From contig KL197714.1 in the NCBI GenBank assembly GCA_000697665.1, positions 993,132 to 1,057,131 on the forward strand: DNA of 64,000 nucleotides. The letters are read 5' to 3'. The stretch comes from Jaapia argillacea MUCL 33604. Taxonomy: Eukaryota; Basidiomycota; Agaricomycetes; Jaapiales; Jaapiaceae. Position numbers and translations under genes: made by a program. Under the pieces are notes generated by a model. It did no database searches and was not told where the DNA came from. It saw nothing but the letters and a program-made list of their open reading frames with translations. Below are positions 7,311 to 44,599 of the stretch, piece after piece. Every line of letters starts with the position of its first letter. The first letter of the stretch is position 1.

Positions 7311-8877
7311 TCAGCGTCGAAAAGAATTGTCAACCTCGGAAAAAACACACCTTTCGAAGGTATCCAGAGGTCTTTCTGGCTGCTTGTGGGCATGTCCGGG
7401 GACCCCTGGGCCGGGGTGGGACTCCTCATCGTGATATCCGATGATGGGAATCCAGTTGCTCAATGGACTGATTCCTGGTTCGAAGCTCGCTTGAGCGACG
7501 TAAAGAAGCAAACCGTCTGGCTTGACTTCGCATGAGATCGACGCGAGTTCACCTTTTCCGGTCAGAAGGGAAGAGTGTGATGACGCGTGGTCGACATCCA
7601 TACTCGGTTCTTCGCTCGAATTGGAGGAGGACAGAGGAAAAGAGAATGGAGCAGGGATGTCAATTGAGATGAAACGGGAAGATCGGGCCAGAGAGATAAT
7701 AGTAGATGATAGAGATAAGATGGACGTGTCAAGGTGGTAGGGTATCGGGGCGAAAGAGGTGGGATACGGGAACCGGTATGTCGAACCAGAGTTTTGTGCG
7801 TGTCCAGGAAGAGAGGGGAACGGTTGGAATGGGGATTCTGACGAAGGGTCAGCCGTGGGCGGGGGCGGCAGAGGCGTTAGCTCAGATAATCGCGTGTCTC
7901 TCCACCAGAATCTGCGTGAAGCATTAGAGCTCAACACATTTATGCCGATGATAGACACGGACCTGAATGCAGTCTCACAATCTCCGAGATCTTGGCTCTT
8001 CCACTTGACAACATCCAGGACGTGCAGAATCCCGTTGTATCGCCAATTGGGATCCAGGATACAATCGAGGATGGTGTCAGGCGGAAGACACGAAGGAAAG
8101 GGCGGGAGTAGAGACTTTCCGAGGACACGAGAGCGAAGCGTTGTGTTCGGAGCTGATGGATAGTTCAAAGACAAAACCCTAACAGCGAATATGGAGGACT
8201 TACCAATACCAGCCAGGCCCGCTGCATGGTGAGTAACCGCAAGGCAACGCTTTCCGACAGGAACAGGGGCCACGGCGACCCATCCAGTCTCCAAATCATG
8301 AGGAAGGCCATCCGTCCATGGATCATCCTCCTTCATCTCCAAAAGCTCCGCATACATGCATTTATCCGCCCATTTGTTCGGCTTCCGTGATGTTTGACCT
8401 TTAGGTTTTCCCTTTCGTTTCTTCCCTTTCTTCTTTCCCTGGATGTGTGCTCGAGGGATGGTCTGATCAGGAGGGGAAATTGCGGCACTGGCAGCGACGC
8501 TGGTAGACGCAAAGGAGTCTGGGAGCATAGAAACAAATCGGCCAACTCCCTCCCTCACGACCGTTTCCTCGATTTCATCTTCATCTCCTTCATCATCGAG
8601 ATTGAGATCAGCAAATAAGTCGAGCTGTCTGGTGGCATCTACGCGCTGGGCACGCCTCTGTACCAGAATATTGTCAGCAAGTACTAAATAGAAGAAAGGG
8701 AAGAGAAACACACACGCGTTTTTGTTCTTCTAATGCCTATACGCCAAGGCCTGGTGAACAGGGTCGCCAACTCAAACGAACTGGACGTACCTTTGCACGA
8801 CGAGCTTGTTGAGAAAAGTGGGGGTCTATGATCGCACTTGGGGGCACTTTATACGAGGCTTTGCGATCTTGAAACAT
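7311..8877 (-). CDS. Snurportin-1-like m3G-cap snRNP import adaptor
   Basis: Minus-strand exons are 8877..8791, 8736..8716, 8657..8204 and 8152..7311, giving 467 residues. Residues about 1-55 form a basic importin-beta-binding type region (SQQARRAKALEEQKR, RRAQRVD), followed by an acidic patch and a Lys-rich stretch (KKKGKKRKGK). The cap-binding domain starts near residue 130 (WTDGLPHD, then GWVAVAPVPVGKRCLAV) and continues with TILDCIL and VLDVVKWKSQDLGDCE, the core of the snurportin m3G-cap pocket. Family role: it binds the trimethylguanosine cap of U snRNAs and, with importin beta, carries snRNPs into the nucleus. The 51-nt intron 8203..8153 is a multiple of three, so a read-through reading frame also exists. 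The C-terminal 150 residues are less conserved and Ser/Pro-rich. Confidence 0.85.
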
Positions 8878-22309: not shown

Positions 22310-25300
22310 TCAATAATGCTGAAAACTACTAGGAGAGCTACGAAGCGGGATGGGGGCGATATCAAGGGAGTCGAATATGAATGCATCGGAATCGGAATCA
22401 GTCCCGTCATCATCAGAATCATCGAAGTTATCTCCATTACCGACATGGAATGCATCTACGAAAGGAGTTTGAGGAGTATCGGATATCGCGTCTGTCGACT
22501 TGGCTAAGATAGCAGCCACTCGTGCTTCCAGTTGTCTAGATGGAGGAGGGAAGGGGTTTCGGGAAGCCTTGGGAAGGCTGTCGTCCTCTCGGAAGAACGT
22601 ACTGAGATCATGCAGGTTCTGCACGAGGTCACCGAGGCTGTGGTCACCGGAAGAGTCTGCTAATGCGTCGAGATCGTCTGGTTCGAAGTCGATACGCGAC
22701 GGACGTGTCGGGACCTGGCAAGTATCGAAGACCGCGATGACGTTAGCTCGACACAACTGTCGAGCTGCGTCTGGGTGAGCGACACACCATCCCGACTCTT
22801 CAGGTACCCCAAACAAGTCAGGAGAGGACTCTGCGGTCTTTGACAGAGTTTGAATATTCATACTCAGCCGAAGGATGTGTTTCGCCGCAAGTCCTCCTGA
22901 GATTGTCATGGGTTCGTCAAGGACGCCAAGGGCTTCCGGAGCCAGATCTGTTTCGAGTAAACGAAGCAAGGGCATGAGGAGTTCAGAGCAGGGGAGTTCG
23001 ACAGGGTTCAGTTGCTGGAACAACATTTTAAGGATTTGCATTGTCGACGTTCGTAACCATCGCTCCTTGTTCAACATAAAGCCCAGAAGGAGTGTCACAA
23101 CGTCTGTCCAATGTTCCCGCGCGTAGTGCTCCCGGATGCTCGAGATAGACTGTCGAAGGAAGTCATCTGTTGTTCGGAATTTACGATGTATGAATGAATC
23201 GAGGATCCGATTGATGCTTGCTCTGCCTTCTTTCGCAGCTAGCTGGGATAGATTACGGGCGAACTCCAGCAGGGATTCTTCGTAGGTCTCGTCGGATTTG
23301 GCCCGAAGACACCAGGGGAGAGATGCAATGTACAGGTCCCGGAGACGGTCCTCGGTCTGGTCGATCAGAGACACAGTGTCGACTTTCGCCAGATGCTGGA
23401 GGACTTTGAATGTTTTCTGGTATGTATTGGAAGATCGCAAACCGACGAGGAGGGACGATTGAAGTGATTTTGATTCTGTCCAGGTGGAAGGACGCTGCAA
23501 AATGAGGCCTTCGACAGTGTCGGGATCGTTGAGATCGAATCGCACAAGGAGTGATTCGAGCAAGGAGAGGATCTGAGTGAACTCTTGTTCGATGGTAGTA
23601 TTCAAGCAAGCACAAGAGCACCAGAATATCTGTGGAAGGAGAGCTGGGTCAAGGTTTCTAGAGGTTGTTAGAGCCTCCAAAGTGAGGATAATCTCAACCG
23701 TGAAGTTCTGAATGTGTTCGTCTTGATCGGCGGCCACAGTGCTAGACAGGCGGCCCAACAACAGCGCCAAGTCGGATTGGGTCACCTTCGGCATCAAAGC
23801 ACGAAACACCTGCATTGAGCGGAATGCAATAGCTCGGATGGAACAACTCGTCCCCCAGGCTAGCGCCAACGAGCCCCACTTTTCGGACAACTTTGGGAAA
23901 AGAGGTTCCAGGAGATCGAGAACCTTTGTACACAATTGGTGCATTTTGGGCTCCGCTTCAGCACTGGCATCTTCGTCTTTCCAGAATAGCGCGTCGGCTT
24001 CACGCTCGAGATTAGCGATAGTTGCCTTCAAAGTAAGACGATGGGGATATGAGGATCGGTCTGCCAGATCGTCATACCCAGCCATCCAGGAACGTAAGAG
24101 CTGGAAAAGCATGCGTCGGGCTCGATGTCGAACGAAAGGGATGCGGTGATCTACGTGGACAAATAGTGCATGGAGTAACACGGGTAGCTGAGCCTGTTGT
24201 TCCCATTGGTTGTCCAAAGCGACGTCTGCGAGAAATAGCAAGGCGAATTGGGCGGTTGCTAGTGATTGGCGTGGCTGCTCGGAGAACAAAGCGTCCAAAT
24301 CAGACCAGAGTTCAATGTCTTCTGCGTCCGGTATCTGTAATTTGTGTTCGATGGTGGGCAGCATTCGAGCAGGCTCTATTAGGCTGCTAAGGTCCTGGAA
24401 TACTTGGCGACCAACGGTACTTTGGGATAGGCAAGCCACAATTCGGGATGCACAGTCGATGAATACAGTGCTGCCAACCTTGTGCGACTGCTCCAAGAGG
24501 AACCTAACGGTGGCGTGACCATTGTGTTGGTGCGGGGAATCGACCAAGCGAGTCCACAAGGTCAAGATTTGCTCTGCGTGGCTATCGGCGTAACGCAGGG
24601 TGAGAGCGATCAAATTATACAGGGCAACACAACCACGCTGGGAAAGCTGGGTCCTGTCTTCTGACATAAGATCGATATTTGACACCCAGTATTCAAGACT
24701 CTGTAGCAGCAACAGATGGGTTTTGCCGGACTGGTTATCGACCGTTCGAGGCATCCAGTCCACAAACTGTGTGAGAACGCTGAATGACTGGTGAGGATGT
24801 TCGCCAGCGATCATATCAGAAATAAGCCTGTGGGCTTGGAGGTACGTTCCAGGTGCGGAACTACCCATGGCAGCCTCAAAGCGTGCCACTGAAAGTATCC
24901 CTGCTGATTCGACGTGTACTTTCTCAAGCATATTGAAGGCGAGACGGCGGATTTCGATGAGGTGGTGGGATAGGTTCGACAGGCCAAGGCAGACAATCTG
25001 GCTGAAGGAGAAGCCATGGTTATCTGTGGAGAGGATAACATCGGCGACCACCTCAAAGAATCGACTGTTGCTTGTATCGAGATCCTTCGAAGTGACAAAT
25101 GCTCGGCGCAAGGCTTCCTCCAGGAGAGTGGCATCGTGTCGTGGATGTCCTAGTAATGATCGTAAAGCTTTCCTGCCAAAGTACGTGAGACGATGAACTC
25201 AGTTAAGGTATGACCCACGAACCTAGCGTGGCCTTGCGTCCCAGAGTCGTAAGAGGCAAGTATTGAGTTCCATCGATCGAGTGTTGATGAAGGATCAAGG

Positions 25301-28300
25301 GATCGGATCGGGCCTTGGCCTATGTTATCCATTGGCGATCCCGAAGACACATCTGGAGGAAAATAAGCCTTTGGCTATGGATTCCTGGAGTTAATGTTGA
25401 TCGCAGGGACGAAAACGAAATGAAGACTAACGCATAAGGCTGCCATAGCCCCCACAGCGGATTTAGAGAGCTTCTTTGTCTCATTCATGAAACGCTCTAT
25501 ACCTTCACCTTTCTTGTGAGGGTCGGTGACATCGCCGGCCGATGATTGCATAAATATGAGTCGGTCTTGTACGGGCTTTGATTGGGCTCCGCATTGGCAC
25601 CATTCTTCACAAAGACGGTAGAGTGATAGATGCATATTTGGGGGTATAAAGCGATCAGAGTCTTTAAGAGTCGCCATCCCGTCAAATAGTCTCTCGACCG
25701 CGCCACAAAAGTATCGGCGCAAACGCTGCAGCATATACTTGTCCCGTGTCTCGTCAGAGGTCAGAAAGGCTTGAGTGTGGCGCACAAATTTTAGGACGTG
25801 GGCTAGCGCTGCCTGGCGTCCAGCCACGCGCTGGTCGCTGATGCAATGAGCTGTCAAATAATAGATGCGCGCAACTGCAGCATAGAAGCGTTCTTGTCTC
25901 CGTGTGCGAGAAGGAATAGAGGGCATATTTTGTTTCGAGCGAGATTCGTCAAAGAATTGGCGAGCTGCGAGAAGATTCAAGTCCTCCAGTAGTTGAGGAT
26001 AACCGTTCGAGGGGAAGGAGCTGATGCACAGGACTGCGGCGTCTCGAAAGATGGTGTGTTCAGAGTCAAGGAAGGGAGCAAGACATCTGAAGAGCCCGCG
26101 GGTTGTCGCCATCCTTTCACGCTCGAAGTTACCTTCCGATGGACCCCTCGAGTGTTCCCGAGTGTTCAACCCTGTCCGAATATCGGAAGCAGCGGTGGCA
26201 CAAATGACTCTCATCCACATACGCCACTGCCTGATGTATGTCATATTGTCAGATACCATCCTCGCACCATCCTTCTCACCCCCAGAAGGATTTCGGGACG
26301 GTAGGCCCGCTGGGGCACGGAAATTGATCCCTGCAATGGCAGCCATAAATGGATGGTATCTGGATGCAGCCGCCACCACCGTCTCCCTAAATCGAAAAAG
26401 ATCTCGAATTTGGCGTTCGACGCTGGTCTGCACGATTGACGGGAAAATCTGCTCCCACACCGCATAATCTCGAGTGTCGTTACTATCAGCGATGCGGAGA
26501 GGCACGTCGGCACGGGTAGACTGTTGCCATTGCTTAAGTCGTTCGAGTTCCTCTTGTCTCTTGATAAGCTCCTCGTGACCCTGAACGAATGACAACCCGA
26601 GAAGCTTCCCGCGAAGGAGTTCGGAGGTGCGCAAGGGTAATCCTGGGGTGTCGGCCGCGGGTGACGTAGCTTCTGGAAGCACATACGCAAGGAGTAAAGC
26701 CAGACTACGGAGTACTTGAACACCGGTGCTTCGCACTTTTCGTTCGATATGGGTGATGAGAAAGAGAGCTCCAGATTCAACTTCCCCTAGACGTTCAAAG
26801 ATGCCGTCCTTGTCCTCCTCCATCAACGATCCACGAGGTCGCCTGAGAATCTCCTGGATCCAACTGTCGACTAGGGTAGCCCATACACTCAACAACCGTC
26901 CGTGTTCAAACACGAACTTGATGCCGGACCCCTCTTGTGAGACGTGTTTGGGATCAAACATGAACGATGTGTACCGTAGAATGACCATCGATGCGTGGTC
27001 AGGTTGTGCTAAGAATCGACGGAGGGCTTGAAAAGCGGCCTCTGCGACCTTCGGCTCGACATGTAGAACGCCGCGGACGAGGGCGTCTACTGTATCCCCA
27101 ACTGAGAGGTTGGGGTGGAGACATCGAGGCCAGGATTGGAAGCATGTATGGAGCATATTGATTTGCGGGACGAGCTGGCTCGGATAAGCGACAATGCCTT
27201 CGGGGTGTCTTCTGAAGACGAAATTGTGTGTTTCCTCGTAGGATTGGCTCATCCGCGAAGCAGCCCATTGGTCATCCATAACGGACATGTGACCAACAGA
27301 GTTTGCACATGAGACAGCTACAGCGGCGAGGACGGAACCACAGCGCTCCAGGAGGTCTTCCATCCCAGCTTTCGCTGTCACTTCAGGAGTCACATAATCG
27401 GCGGATGAAGCGTAATCCTCCCGCGGTGGTATGATGGAAAAGTCTGTGTTTGATGGCCACGCGGGTCGAAATTTATCCTGCTCACAGCCATGAGCAGAGA
27501 GCAAAATGGCCTGGACGCCGACAGAAAGCCTCTCGTGGGACATGAGGTTCGAAACATTTGGGGATGTCGCTGAATGGACCAGGGATTCCTGGATAAGCTC
27601 CAGACAAAGATCTCGACCATAATCAAAGTGCCGTGATAGGACGAAATGAACGATGTAGATGAATGGCTCGAAATGGTCTTCATTTGGATAGAGGTTTTGT
27701 CGATTGGAGGGGAAGAAATGTTTCAACAGAGCATCCAATTTCGCGGTGGTCGTCGATCCAGGTTCGTGACATCGATACAGATATGTCCAAAGCAATCTCA
27801 TCATGCCGTTCATAATGTGGATACGGAAAACCTTGTCCTGTTCGAAAAACTAGTGAGACTTATTCGAGAAGACGAGTTAGCCCCCAATCACCTTGAGCTT
27901 GCCCAGCCCGTTTTCGAAACAGGTAGTCCAATTGCGCAAGAAATATTCGTGCGGCGCTACACATAAACTAGTGACTGCGAGAGGGTATGCGACCTGCCAG
28001 TATCGCGGCTTCGTCATCATATCTCGGGCTCTTGGGTGAATGATTTCGATGGCTTTCGCCCAGTCAGGGTGGTTAACCTCCGCTTGGGCTGTCTTCAGGG
28101 CCGTGGTCGTCAATGGGCGCAAATATCAAATCGCAAAAGACAAGCATACCTTTCCAATCGGATGCAGCATCTGAGTAAGTGTTTCTGCAAACGCCGTTTT
28201 TAAACGGAATCCGTGGGCATTCCCAAAAGACTTTGACAGCGATTCCATAAACTCTGCTCCTTGGTCAAAAAATTCTGGGGGCCAAACCTACGTGACTTCG

Positions 28301-42425: not shown

Positions 42426-44599
42426 CTAAACCAGATCCATACTCTTTACATTGGCGTGAAGGACCATATCCCGAACTGCAATCAGAAGCGTCAGACGAGT
42501 TTCAACGATATGATTTGGGGGCTTACAATCATCGAGCAGTTCCGCCGTGGATTTAGTGTCCTGTGAGCCAAATTCAGGATAATGTAATCAATGTTGAACA
42601 CGCTCGCTTACCACCAGCGAAGTGAAATGACTATAGAAGGTCCTATTTTCAGGCGAATGATGTTTATGGATATGCGCAAACTTGCGTCGAAGATCTAGTC
42701 AGGTCGCCAGGTCAGGCTGTGACATACAAACTCAAAGTGGAGAGGCCTACACGCTGAGGCGTTCTCAAAATCGTTGGGTCGGTTGCCATATGACACGATG
42801 TATTTCGCGAGCTTTATTCCCGCAGAGAGCTTTTGCCGAAGAATATCACACTTGTTCAAGAACAGGACAATCTCCGTGCGAGCGAGGAGTGGGTTTGAGA
42901 TCACTGTTCGCCACAGTTGTACTGAGTCTTCCTGCGGAGAAGTGAGCTAGGAGCAGGAGTGAAAGGGGAAGACGTCACACCAGACGATTAACAGACGGAT
43001 CCTCTTCCAAGACCTGGTCAAAGCAGCTGATAGGTGCTAAGAAAATGATCGCATCCATATCGTCAAAGTACGGAACCCATGCAGCTATGAGGAACGTATT
43101 CGTATTTCAAAGGGCTTCACTAAAGTCGAAGTTGAACAATTTACCTCGCTAAAAATACGGAGGAAAGGGACATGAGTAATTCTGGGCCTGGGCGATAGTA
43201 AGAAAACTCACCAAAGACCGCTGACCGCCCACGTCATATACTCTCCAATCGCGGGCGAGCATTTTCCCTGCAAGGTAGCCCAATTCAACAAGATACCAGA
43301 GGTCGGGTTACATGATGGCGCACCAGAAGCCATTGTGAATCGGTATTCCATTATGCCCACTGTCTTGATACGTGCCCTCATGATATCCTCTGCCAAAGTG
43401 TAATGGGTAAAATCATGTAATCGGCCAAAAGGCTACCTGGAACGTACCATCCGTAGGCAGATAACCGAGGGCGGTTACTCTTTCCAAATCATTCAAGAAG
43501 AATCCAGGGCTTTCCTCGAGTCTCAATTTTTGGTGATGGCACAAGGTTTTAATCGTCGGATCCTTCCAAAGTCGAACCATGTCTTCCTTACAAGCGAAGA
43601 TGACTTGGGATGGTTCGTCAGGATCGAACATATGCCGAACCATATCTGCGTTGGGCCGGTCATCCTTACGAATGAAGTTGCTGAACTTTGCAGCCCAAGT
43701 AGCTTGGAAGGAAACTTCCTTGCAAGCCTTCCGAGACCGCTCATAGTATGGTAGATTGGTCAATTGTGACAAGGGGGAATCGAATCCAGCTGCGCCGTCC
43801 GGGTCCAGTCGCCTTAGTAGAACATGTTCGACCTCTAGTAGAGGGGCGAGTCTCATCTTGAGCAACCGTTGTTCATGGGTGAGGGCGGGAGTTTCGGATG
43901 ACAGTGAATTGTGAGCGTCGCGCGTCGGGGAGGAACTCAAAGTCATGGATGACCCAGAGGATTTGCGGGAGATTGATTGTGCCTCACTCATGGTGTCGAG
44001 GACGAGGCGAATTGAGCGAACAATATTGAGTTGGATGACAGCCTTCCACGACAGTCGTTCGGACGACAATGACTTGTAACCGGCAAGGTTGAGAAAAGAA
44101 TGATAAGTACGCCATCAGACTTACATTCGGGCAGTTCATTAGCTGAAAATCTACCGGGGAGAGAAAAAAAGATGTTGGATGGAATACGAAAGGGAATGCA
44201 GGGGAACTTGACCCACTTTTCAAGGCTGTTGATTTGCCTGAGACGGATGGCCATTAGACTCTCGATGACCAGAGACTATGTGCATTGCAACATTACCTGA
44301 TTCGCTCTGACCTAGAGGACAATCAGGGCGCAAACGACCTCCTGGGAGCGAGAACGCTTACCCAACAACAAAATTTTGATTGTTTTCGAAGACTTGTACC
44401 TTGCGATTCGGTCCTGGTCGATCTCCCTATCAATGTCTTCGCTGACTCGCTTGGCCTCTGCCTCTGCGAGTAACCTGGCTTGTCGCTGTTCATCCGTCTC
44501 ATTCGGTGGAGGAGCTAGGGCCAGCGTTAAGGGGTCCTGGGGGTTGATAGAGGAATATGGGGGTGGCATGGTGGGAGATTTACGGCGAGAACGACACAT
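42426..44599 (-). CDS. Atypical heterotrimeric G-protein alpha subunit with microexons
   Basis: Thirteen minus-strand exons: 44599..44362, 44311..44297, 44237..44217, 44150..44125, 44072..43448, 43389..43324, 43267..43212, 43148..43145, 43084..42981, 42931..42751, 42694..42612, 42560..42527 and 42475..42426, for 500 residues (usual G-alpha about 350). Motifs in order: G1 GQSESGKST (80-88), switch I RARIKTVG (about 312-319), G3 DVGGQRS with catalytic Gln (about 342), NKCD (about 411), and a G5-like TSLVDTKST. It binds and hydrolyses GTP at the plasma membrane downstream of receptors. Oddities: about 60 extra N-terminal residues without the MGxxxS myristoylation motif, an extra Ser-rich segment in the helical domain, and exons of 15, 21 and 4 nt. 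All three microexons are needed to restore conserved G1 and G3 sequence. A later ATG (44569) is an alternative start. Confidence 0.88.

Follow-up and report, generated by a model that had tools for sequence, protein, structure and literature searches.

Does a G-alpha gene of the fungus Jaapia argillacea contain internal exons of 15, 21 and 4 nucleotides, and what would have brought exons this small into the coding regions of its P-loop and switch II? The gene lies in the window, the whole stretch of 64,000 nucleotides that was analysed, where a sequence-only reading had proposed the three exons and had suggested that their splicing could act as a switch. The explanation that we regard as very probable is that the gene encodes an intact, large G-alpha, and that the 15-, 21- and 4-nt exons are real, are constitutively spliced and arose as by-products when introns were gained and lost in the gene family.

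Gene structure, predicted protein and the microexons

The gene extends over 44569..42426 on the minus strand and was modelled with our own spliced aligner, which applies a simple splice-site score; the queries were proteins predicted from nine large paralogous loci of the same genome. Thirteen exons comprise a frame of 490 amino acids without a frameshift or internal stop, and all 12 introns are of the GT-AG type, with lengths of 49-66 nt. Exon 1 (208 nt, 44362..44569), for which the start codon was picked by likeness to paralog N-termini, encodes the N-terminus and KILLLG. It is followed by exon 2 (15 nt, 44297..44311, phase 1 to 1), which spliced alignment places in the P-loop as QSES, by exon 3 (21 nt, 44217..44237, also phase 1 to 1), which spliced alignment and intron comparison place there as GKSTALK, and by exon 4 (26 nt, 44125..44150; NFQLMNCPN), again from spliced alignment. 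Exon 5 (625 nt, 43448..44072) holds the helical domain and a variable insert, exon 6 (66 nt, 43324..43389) holds switch I with MRARIKTVG, and exon 7 (56 nt, 43212..43267) reads DWRVYDVGGQRSL. Within switch II there follow intron 7 (63 nt, 43149..43211, GTGAGT..TAG, phase 0; site e), the 4-nt exon 8 (43145..43148), in which CGAG provides the codon for R340 and the first base of the codon for A341, and intron 8 (60 nt, 43085..43144, GTAAAT..TAG, phase 1; site f). The predicted spliced order around exon 8 is TCTTTG, then CGAG, then CTGCATGG. Exon 9 (104 nt, 42981..43084) encodes AAWVPYFDD...NRL and exon 10 (181 nt, 42751..42931) contains LFLNKCD; exons 11 (83 nt, 42612..42694), 12 (34 nt, 42527..42560; DTKSTAELLDD) and 13 (50 nt, 42426..42475) complete the frame, the last of them ending with the stop codon. 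All of these features are on the minus strand. If a microexon is taken as an internal exon that is flanked by splice-site dinucleotides and is no longer than 30 nt (15 nt on the strictest definition), then the predicted 4-, 15-, 21- and 26-nt exons, each between GT-AG introns, fall within that size class. The positions of the three smallest exons agree exactly with those first proposed from the sequence, as do the 63- and 60-nt introns that flank the 4-nt exon. Assembly of the P-loop GQSESGKST had been thought to need four exons; exons 1, 2 and 3 are indeed required, but the 26-nt exon is not, as it comes after the motif. Elsewhere in the window, the minus strand carries a cell-morphogenesis protein of the MOR2/PAG1 family, spread over two long frames (22310-27813), and a Snurportin-1 m3G-cap-binding domain (7311-8711).

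The predicted protein matches PF00503 at 330.9 bits, against a curated cut-off of 48.8, over the whole profile (1-333 of 333), which bears out the first identification of the gene as a G-alpha. Like heterotrimeric G-alphas it keeps the P-loop GQSESGKST, the switch-I Arg and Thr, DVGGQ with its catalytic Gln, and NKCD; it differs from them in its length of 490 residues, which includes a long insert. Identity is 39-47% to the nine large paralogs and 27-34% to five canonical-type G-alphas of the same genome, four of which are partial or poor models. By sequence, this is an intact gene for a putative G-alpha of the large, non-canonical type, which occurs in many copies in the genome. The catalytic Gln of DVGGQ, present in the window gene, is S, A or T in the nine other large G-alphas, and its replacement suggests that GTP hydrolysis may be changed in those nine.

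Residue R340 is arginine in 15 of 15 aligned G-alpha models. It appears to match R208 of human G-alpha-i, the arginine of the Gly-Arg-Glu triad, an equivalence that we take from the alignment together with motif counting in the human numbering. The acidic partner of the triad is an aspartate in the window protein and in the other nine large members. A preprint attributes the stability of GTP-bound G-alpha to this triad, and a passage of the same source finds pH-dependent stability unaltered by a change at R208 (PMC11092800).

How well are exons of this size held by the alignments? The 15-, 21- and 4-nt exons were each recovered exactly when any one of the nine paralog proteins was used as the sole query. 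Of two canonical G-alpha queries, locus L009 returns the full set of three exons and L014, whose partial model lacks the P-loop, just the 4-nt exon. All nine paralog queries keep the 15- and 21-nt exons across intron penalties from 6 to 18; the 4-nt exon is kept by nine of nine at penalties of 6, 9 and 12, by eight at 15 and by three at 18, and the queries that drop it all take the same single-intron path, considered below. The paralog models were initially built with the window protein as query and so are not fully independent of the window gene. It should also be noted that the aligner can place spurious tiny exons in the badly conserved insert, as in L028 and L018 (one or two of nine queries), and reliance was placed on splice sites backed by most queries. 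By our own simple score, the donor of intron 8 (GTAAAT) is middling and that of intron 2 (GTAATG) is weak.

For the switch-II tract, from DVGGQ.. to ..WVPYFDD, 11 routes that use GT or GC donors and AG acceptors are in frame and free of stops. The route through the 4-nt exon ranks at the top with 81.6 (mean score over nine paralog segments), ahead of 73.7 and 72.4 for the next two, and all ten other in-frame bridges score below it. Removal of one segment with any edges yields 617 in-frame products, the best of which reaches 73.6 against the 81.6 of the 4-nt route, and in the 12 best shown of these 617 the arginine is lost every time. The 127-nt tract was also shuffled with its dinucleotides preserved and its first 6 and last 4 bases fixed, joins being allowed where the donor scored at least as high as GTAAAT, the intron was at least 42 nt and the exon at most 30 nt; none of 5000 shuffles reached the observed score of the 4-nt route, and one of 5000 reached 77. 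These results uphold the view that conserved switch-II sequence requires the CGAG exon, and the PF00503 score falls from 330.9 bits with that exon to 155.2 when it is skipped. At the level of DNA, the three predicted exons can be considered confirmed.

Intron positions across the G-alpha family

The comparison covered the window's own genome, in which 45 matches were grouped into 20 loci including the window; one more weak match lies beyond these (C1, E 0.002). Locus L027 looks Arf-like and was dropped from the G-alpha set. The remaining 19 loci divide into 11 of the large type (the window gene, L011, L012, L013, L017, L018, L019, L020, which was refetched as L028, L023, L024 and L025) and eight that are canonical or divergent (L009, L010, L014, L015, L016, L021, L022 and L026). 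The broken L024 was used neither as a query nor in the alignment or tree, and the 15-row alignment omits L016, L022 and L026; the models of L010, L014, L015 and L021 are partial or poor, and L018 entered the intron-position alignment with its first model. L024 (G000:C37:159500-164500) lies about 10 kb from L023 and is a broken near-copy that has a stop, an interrupted frame and an altered P-loop region; it is probably a decaying duplicate of L023. L022 and L026 (G000:C40) are divergent G-alpha relatives in which DVGGQ is unrecognisable and the neighbouring segments align.

The codon and phase of each intron were compared across the alignment of 15 G-alpha models. Eleven of the 12 introns of the window gene match two or more of the nine large paralogs in both respects; intron 4, downstream of the 26-nt exon, is the sole one absent from all nine. 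Two or more paralogs share the codon and phase of each intron that bounds one of the three microexons, and nine of nine queries support these bounding sites in the paralog models. In switch II, five paralogs (L011, L012, L013, L023 and L025) have the phase-0 intron that precedes R340 (site e), two (L018 and L028) have the phase-1 intron 4 nt past it (site f), and only the window gene, among the ten large members, has both. A similar arrangement is seen in the P-loop, where an intron in G70 occurs in L018 and L023, one in G75 occurs in L011, L012, L013 and L028, and, again among the ten, the window gene alone has the two together. The 21-nt exon 3 is found also in L011, L012, L013 and L028, and a 36-nt exon of L023 equals the 15 plus 21 nt of the window gene; no large paralog among the nine has the 15-nt or the 4-nt cassette.

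Switch II has a third intron position, 27 nt farther along, which L018, L028 and L023 share and which L025 has in its first model. For this last L025 site (after DD), the first model, with an intron of 214 nt, was used because the second run limited introns to 150 nt; that run put a doubtful 27-nt exon there (eight of nine queries). L025 (G000:C16:273500-278500) has in addition a 9-nt exon, CGAGGCCAA (RGQ), just before the switch-II arginine; recovered by nine of nine queries between introns of 81 and 88 nt, it gives the family another microexon in this stretch. None of the five canonical-type models in the alignment uses any of the switch-II positions, and in L009, the sole usable canonical comparison at the P-loop, the intron is located elsewhere. 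The switch-II stretch is cut by introns at several very close sites, and the window gene happens to hold a pair that are 4 nt apart; it appears to have its tiny 4-nt exon because both neighbouring positions, single in the sister genes, co-occur here. On this model the spacing between adjacent introns would be 4 nt in switch II and 15 and 21 nt in the P-loop; at two of these three pairs, every modelled sister gene has one intron or none.

Among the ten large members all four combinations of presence and absence of the neighbouring introns occur, both in switch II and around the 15-nt P-loop exon, which means that one site or more has undergone repeated change, or that genes have exchanged segments. 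The family tree has 11 rows, with ultrafast bootstrap values of 53-67% for five of its eight inner branches and 93-100 for three. On the best tree, with these weak branches, parsimony gives three changes each for sites e and f and two each for the P-loop sites a and b, and a Dollo single-gain reading gives three and two losses for e and f and one each for a and b. A single gain with later losses is possible on that tree, five weak branches included, at each of the six sites tested, and, with the same weakly supported branching, would put the 4-nt exon in the ancestor of seven of the ten large members. We lean toward an intron-dense ancestor with paired introns rather than independent gain. A recent spread of the switch-II introns as repeats was considered and rejected, in that a 171-base query over both matched only itself in the genome, a search in which missing matches do not prove rarity.

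Splicing of the microexons and competing explanations

Splicing of the microexons is likely to be constitutive. According to part of a review (PMC8624252), recognition of small introns is believed to take place across the intron itself, with an efficiency that tracks the length of the intron and not of the exon; the proposal that a 4-nt exon is "near the physical limit of exon definition" was probably set in the wrong frame. Most likely, each small intron of the window gene would be recognised across itself and the introns removed one after the other. Once the first switch-II intron was out, the 4-nt exon would become the edge of a larger exon, and the other intron could then be removed; the exon would maintain the frame and supply the invariant switch-II arginine. 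The CGAG exon ends in GAG before GTAAAT, so it could provide the exon side of its own donor site. Plant microexons are described, in a section of PMC8831610, as too small for simultaneous assembly of both flanking introns, which compete, and one of which may be detained. Intron-wise recognition combined with such competition (PMC8624252, PMC8831610) leads to the expectation that one switch-II intron would go first, and the competition also pulls against calling the exon-size limit irrelevant.

Could the 4-nt exon instead have been retained for control? A very intron-dense ancestor of the family may have had 4- and 27-nt exons in switch II and 15- and 21-nt exons in the P-loop, the window copy keeping the 4-nt exon, with its frameshift as a splicing-coupled off-control of one G-alpha; the exon carries the triad arginine, and its non-inclusion would remove the protein by frameshift. 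We consider this unlikely. A broader proposal, that skipping or retention around any of the microexons is regulated to turn the G protein off, is distinctly unlikely; regulation as such is possible and is given low weight. Exons 2 and 3 are symmetric, so that skipping would retain the frame (485 and 483 aa, respectively, and 478 aa when both are skipped), but the predicted proteins that lack exon 2 or exon 3 have a broken P-loop, in keeping with the earlier expectation that loss of either exon harms the nucleotide-binding motif. Were the 4-nt exon skipped, the frame would shift and reach a stop after 354 codons, upstream of four further introns, and an intron-retained form that stays open (512 aa) is predicted for intron 3, although retention of intron 7 or 8 would bring a stop after 359 or 352 codons. 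Intron 3 itself (44151-44216, minus strand, 66 nt) has no in-frame stop, and its retention would add 22 residues just past the P-loop. A microexon regulated by glucose is reported in Trichoderma (PMC11121469), and retention is described as commoner than skipping for plant microexons in part of PMC8831610, a point against the switch. Against regulation in general, the introns that bound the microexons are ordinary family introns that recur in paralogs, the majority of which lack a microexon at these sites, and neither the 15-nt nor the 4-nt cassette occurs in any of the nine large ones; the suggestion of a splicing switch found no support.

A different possibility is that there is no 4-nt exon, and that a single intron of 123 nt (43207..43085) joins the tract as DVGGQRSL-VT-AWVPYFDD. 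This path is in frame, gives a protein of equal length and needs one splice fewer; its PF00503 score is just 5 bits less (325.9 against 330.9), and at intron penalties of 18 and 15 it is favoured by six and one of the nine queries, respectively. Its rank is third of the 11 routes (72.4 against 81.6), and its donor, GTTTTC, scores -1.5 by our own score, below all donors in the gene (0.6 to 3.6). The intron would be about twice as long as any other in the gene and would exceed each of 84 supported paralog introns, a list compiled by hand from introns with at least six of nine queries, minus a doubtful pair in L025 (145 and 48 nt); introns with low support, among them some with lengths of 123-144 nt, are not in that list, nor is the final switch-II intron of L025 (214 or 145 nt by model). 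The single intron would further swap R-A for V-T at a position where arginine is found in 15 of 15 aligned G-alphas, and it does not explain why both inner junctions match true paralog intron positions. It is disfavoured, and on these comparisons we judge it very unlikely. A stwintron, in which an inner intron interrupts a splice signal and leaves no exon in between, resembles the present case in having two introns close together; the difference is that the window gene needs 4 nt between its introns for the frame and for R340. Direct joining of 43212 to 43084 shifts the frame, with a stop after 354 codons, and the best of the 617 in-frame single removals falls short (73.6 against 81.6), so that this structure, which is described as removed in two reactions in a passage of PMC9024468, was rejected. 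That the gene is decaying or bears a sequencing error, with tiny exons as an accident of alignment, is scarcely credible, for although the genome does contain a broken relative (L024), the entire frame is open, all examined GTPase motifs are kept and the shuffle control speaks against it.

Relation to known microexons and significance

Constitutive by-products of intron gain and loss, as preferred here, can be set beside microexon systems described elsewhere. P450 genes of Phanerochaete chrysosporium have microexons down to 6 bp and introns of 45-55 bp, according to a passage of PMC1184071, and 1-nt exons have been validated in plants (APC11 and VPS55), with sister copies that lack the exon (part of PMC8831610). 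The likeness is in tiny exons between small introns within multigene families; the window exon differs in being 4 nt, in a G-alpha, and predicted from DNA, and in that its two bounding introns occur singly in paralogs. Codon-sized microexons of about 3 nt are reported for NACHT-ankyrin genes of Tuber melanosporum (Iotti 2012, as cited in passages of PMC4986451 and PMC3689799), where alternative splicing diversifies the proteins, whereas the DNA of the window gene gives no sign of alternative use. The Xlr2 gene of Trichoderma virens likewise has a microexon in a filamentous fungus, and its inclusion changes with glucose; nothing in the window DNA points to such regulation. The authors of that work state, in the portion drawn on here, that functional microexons were previously undescribed in filamentous fungi and that microexons had been experimentally tested earlier only in fission yeast (PMC11121469). 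Among the matches listed from open-licence literature, a microexon in a fungal G-alpha was not found. Nor was an expansion of large G-alphas in mushroom-type fungi found among the literature matches listed, which marks the limit of the search and is not proof of absence.

In fungal G-alpha genes, automatic annotation could miss the arginine of the switch region or the remainder of the protein. The window gene also lends itself to testing how a 4-nt exon is spliced when small introns lie on either side. Here two intron positions four bases apart, each of which stands alone elsewhere, are joined in one gene, and, if cDNA confirms the junctions, the origin of an ultra-short exon would be readable from sister genes within one genome.
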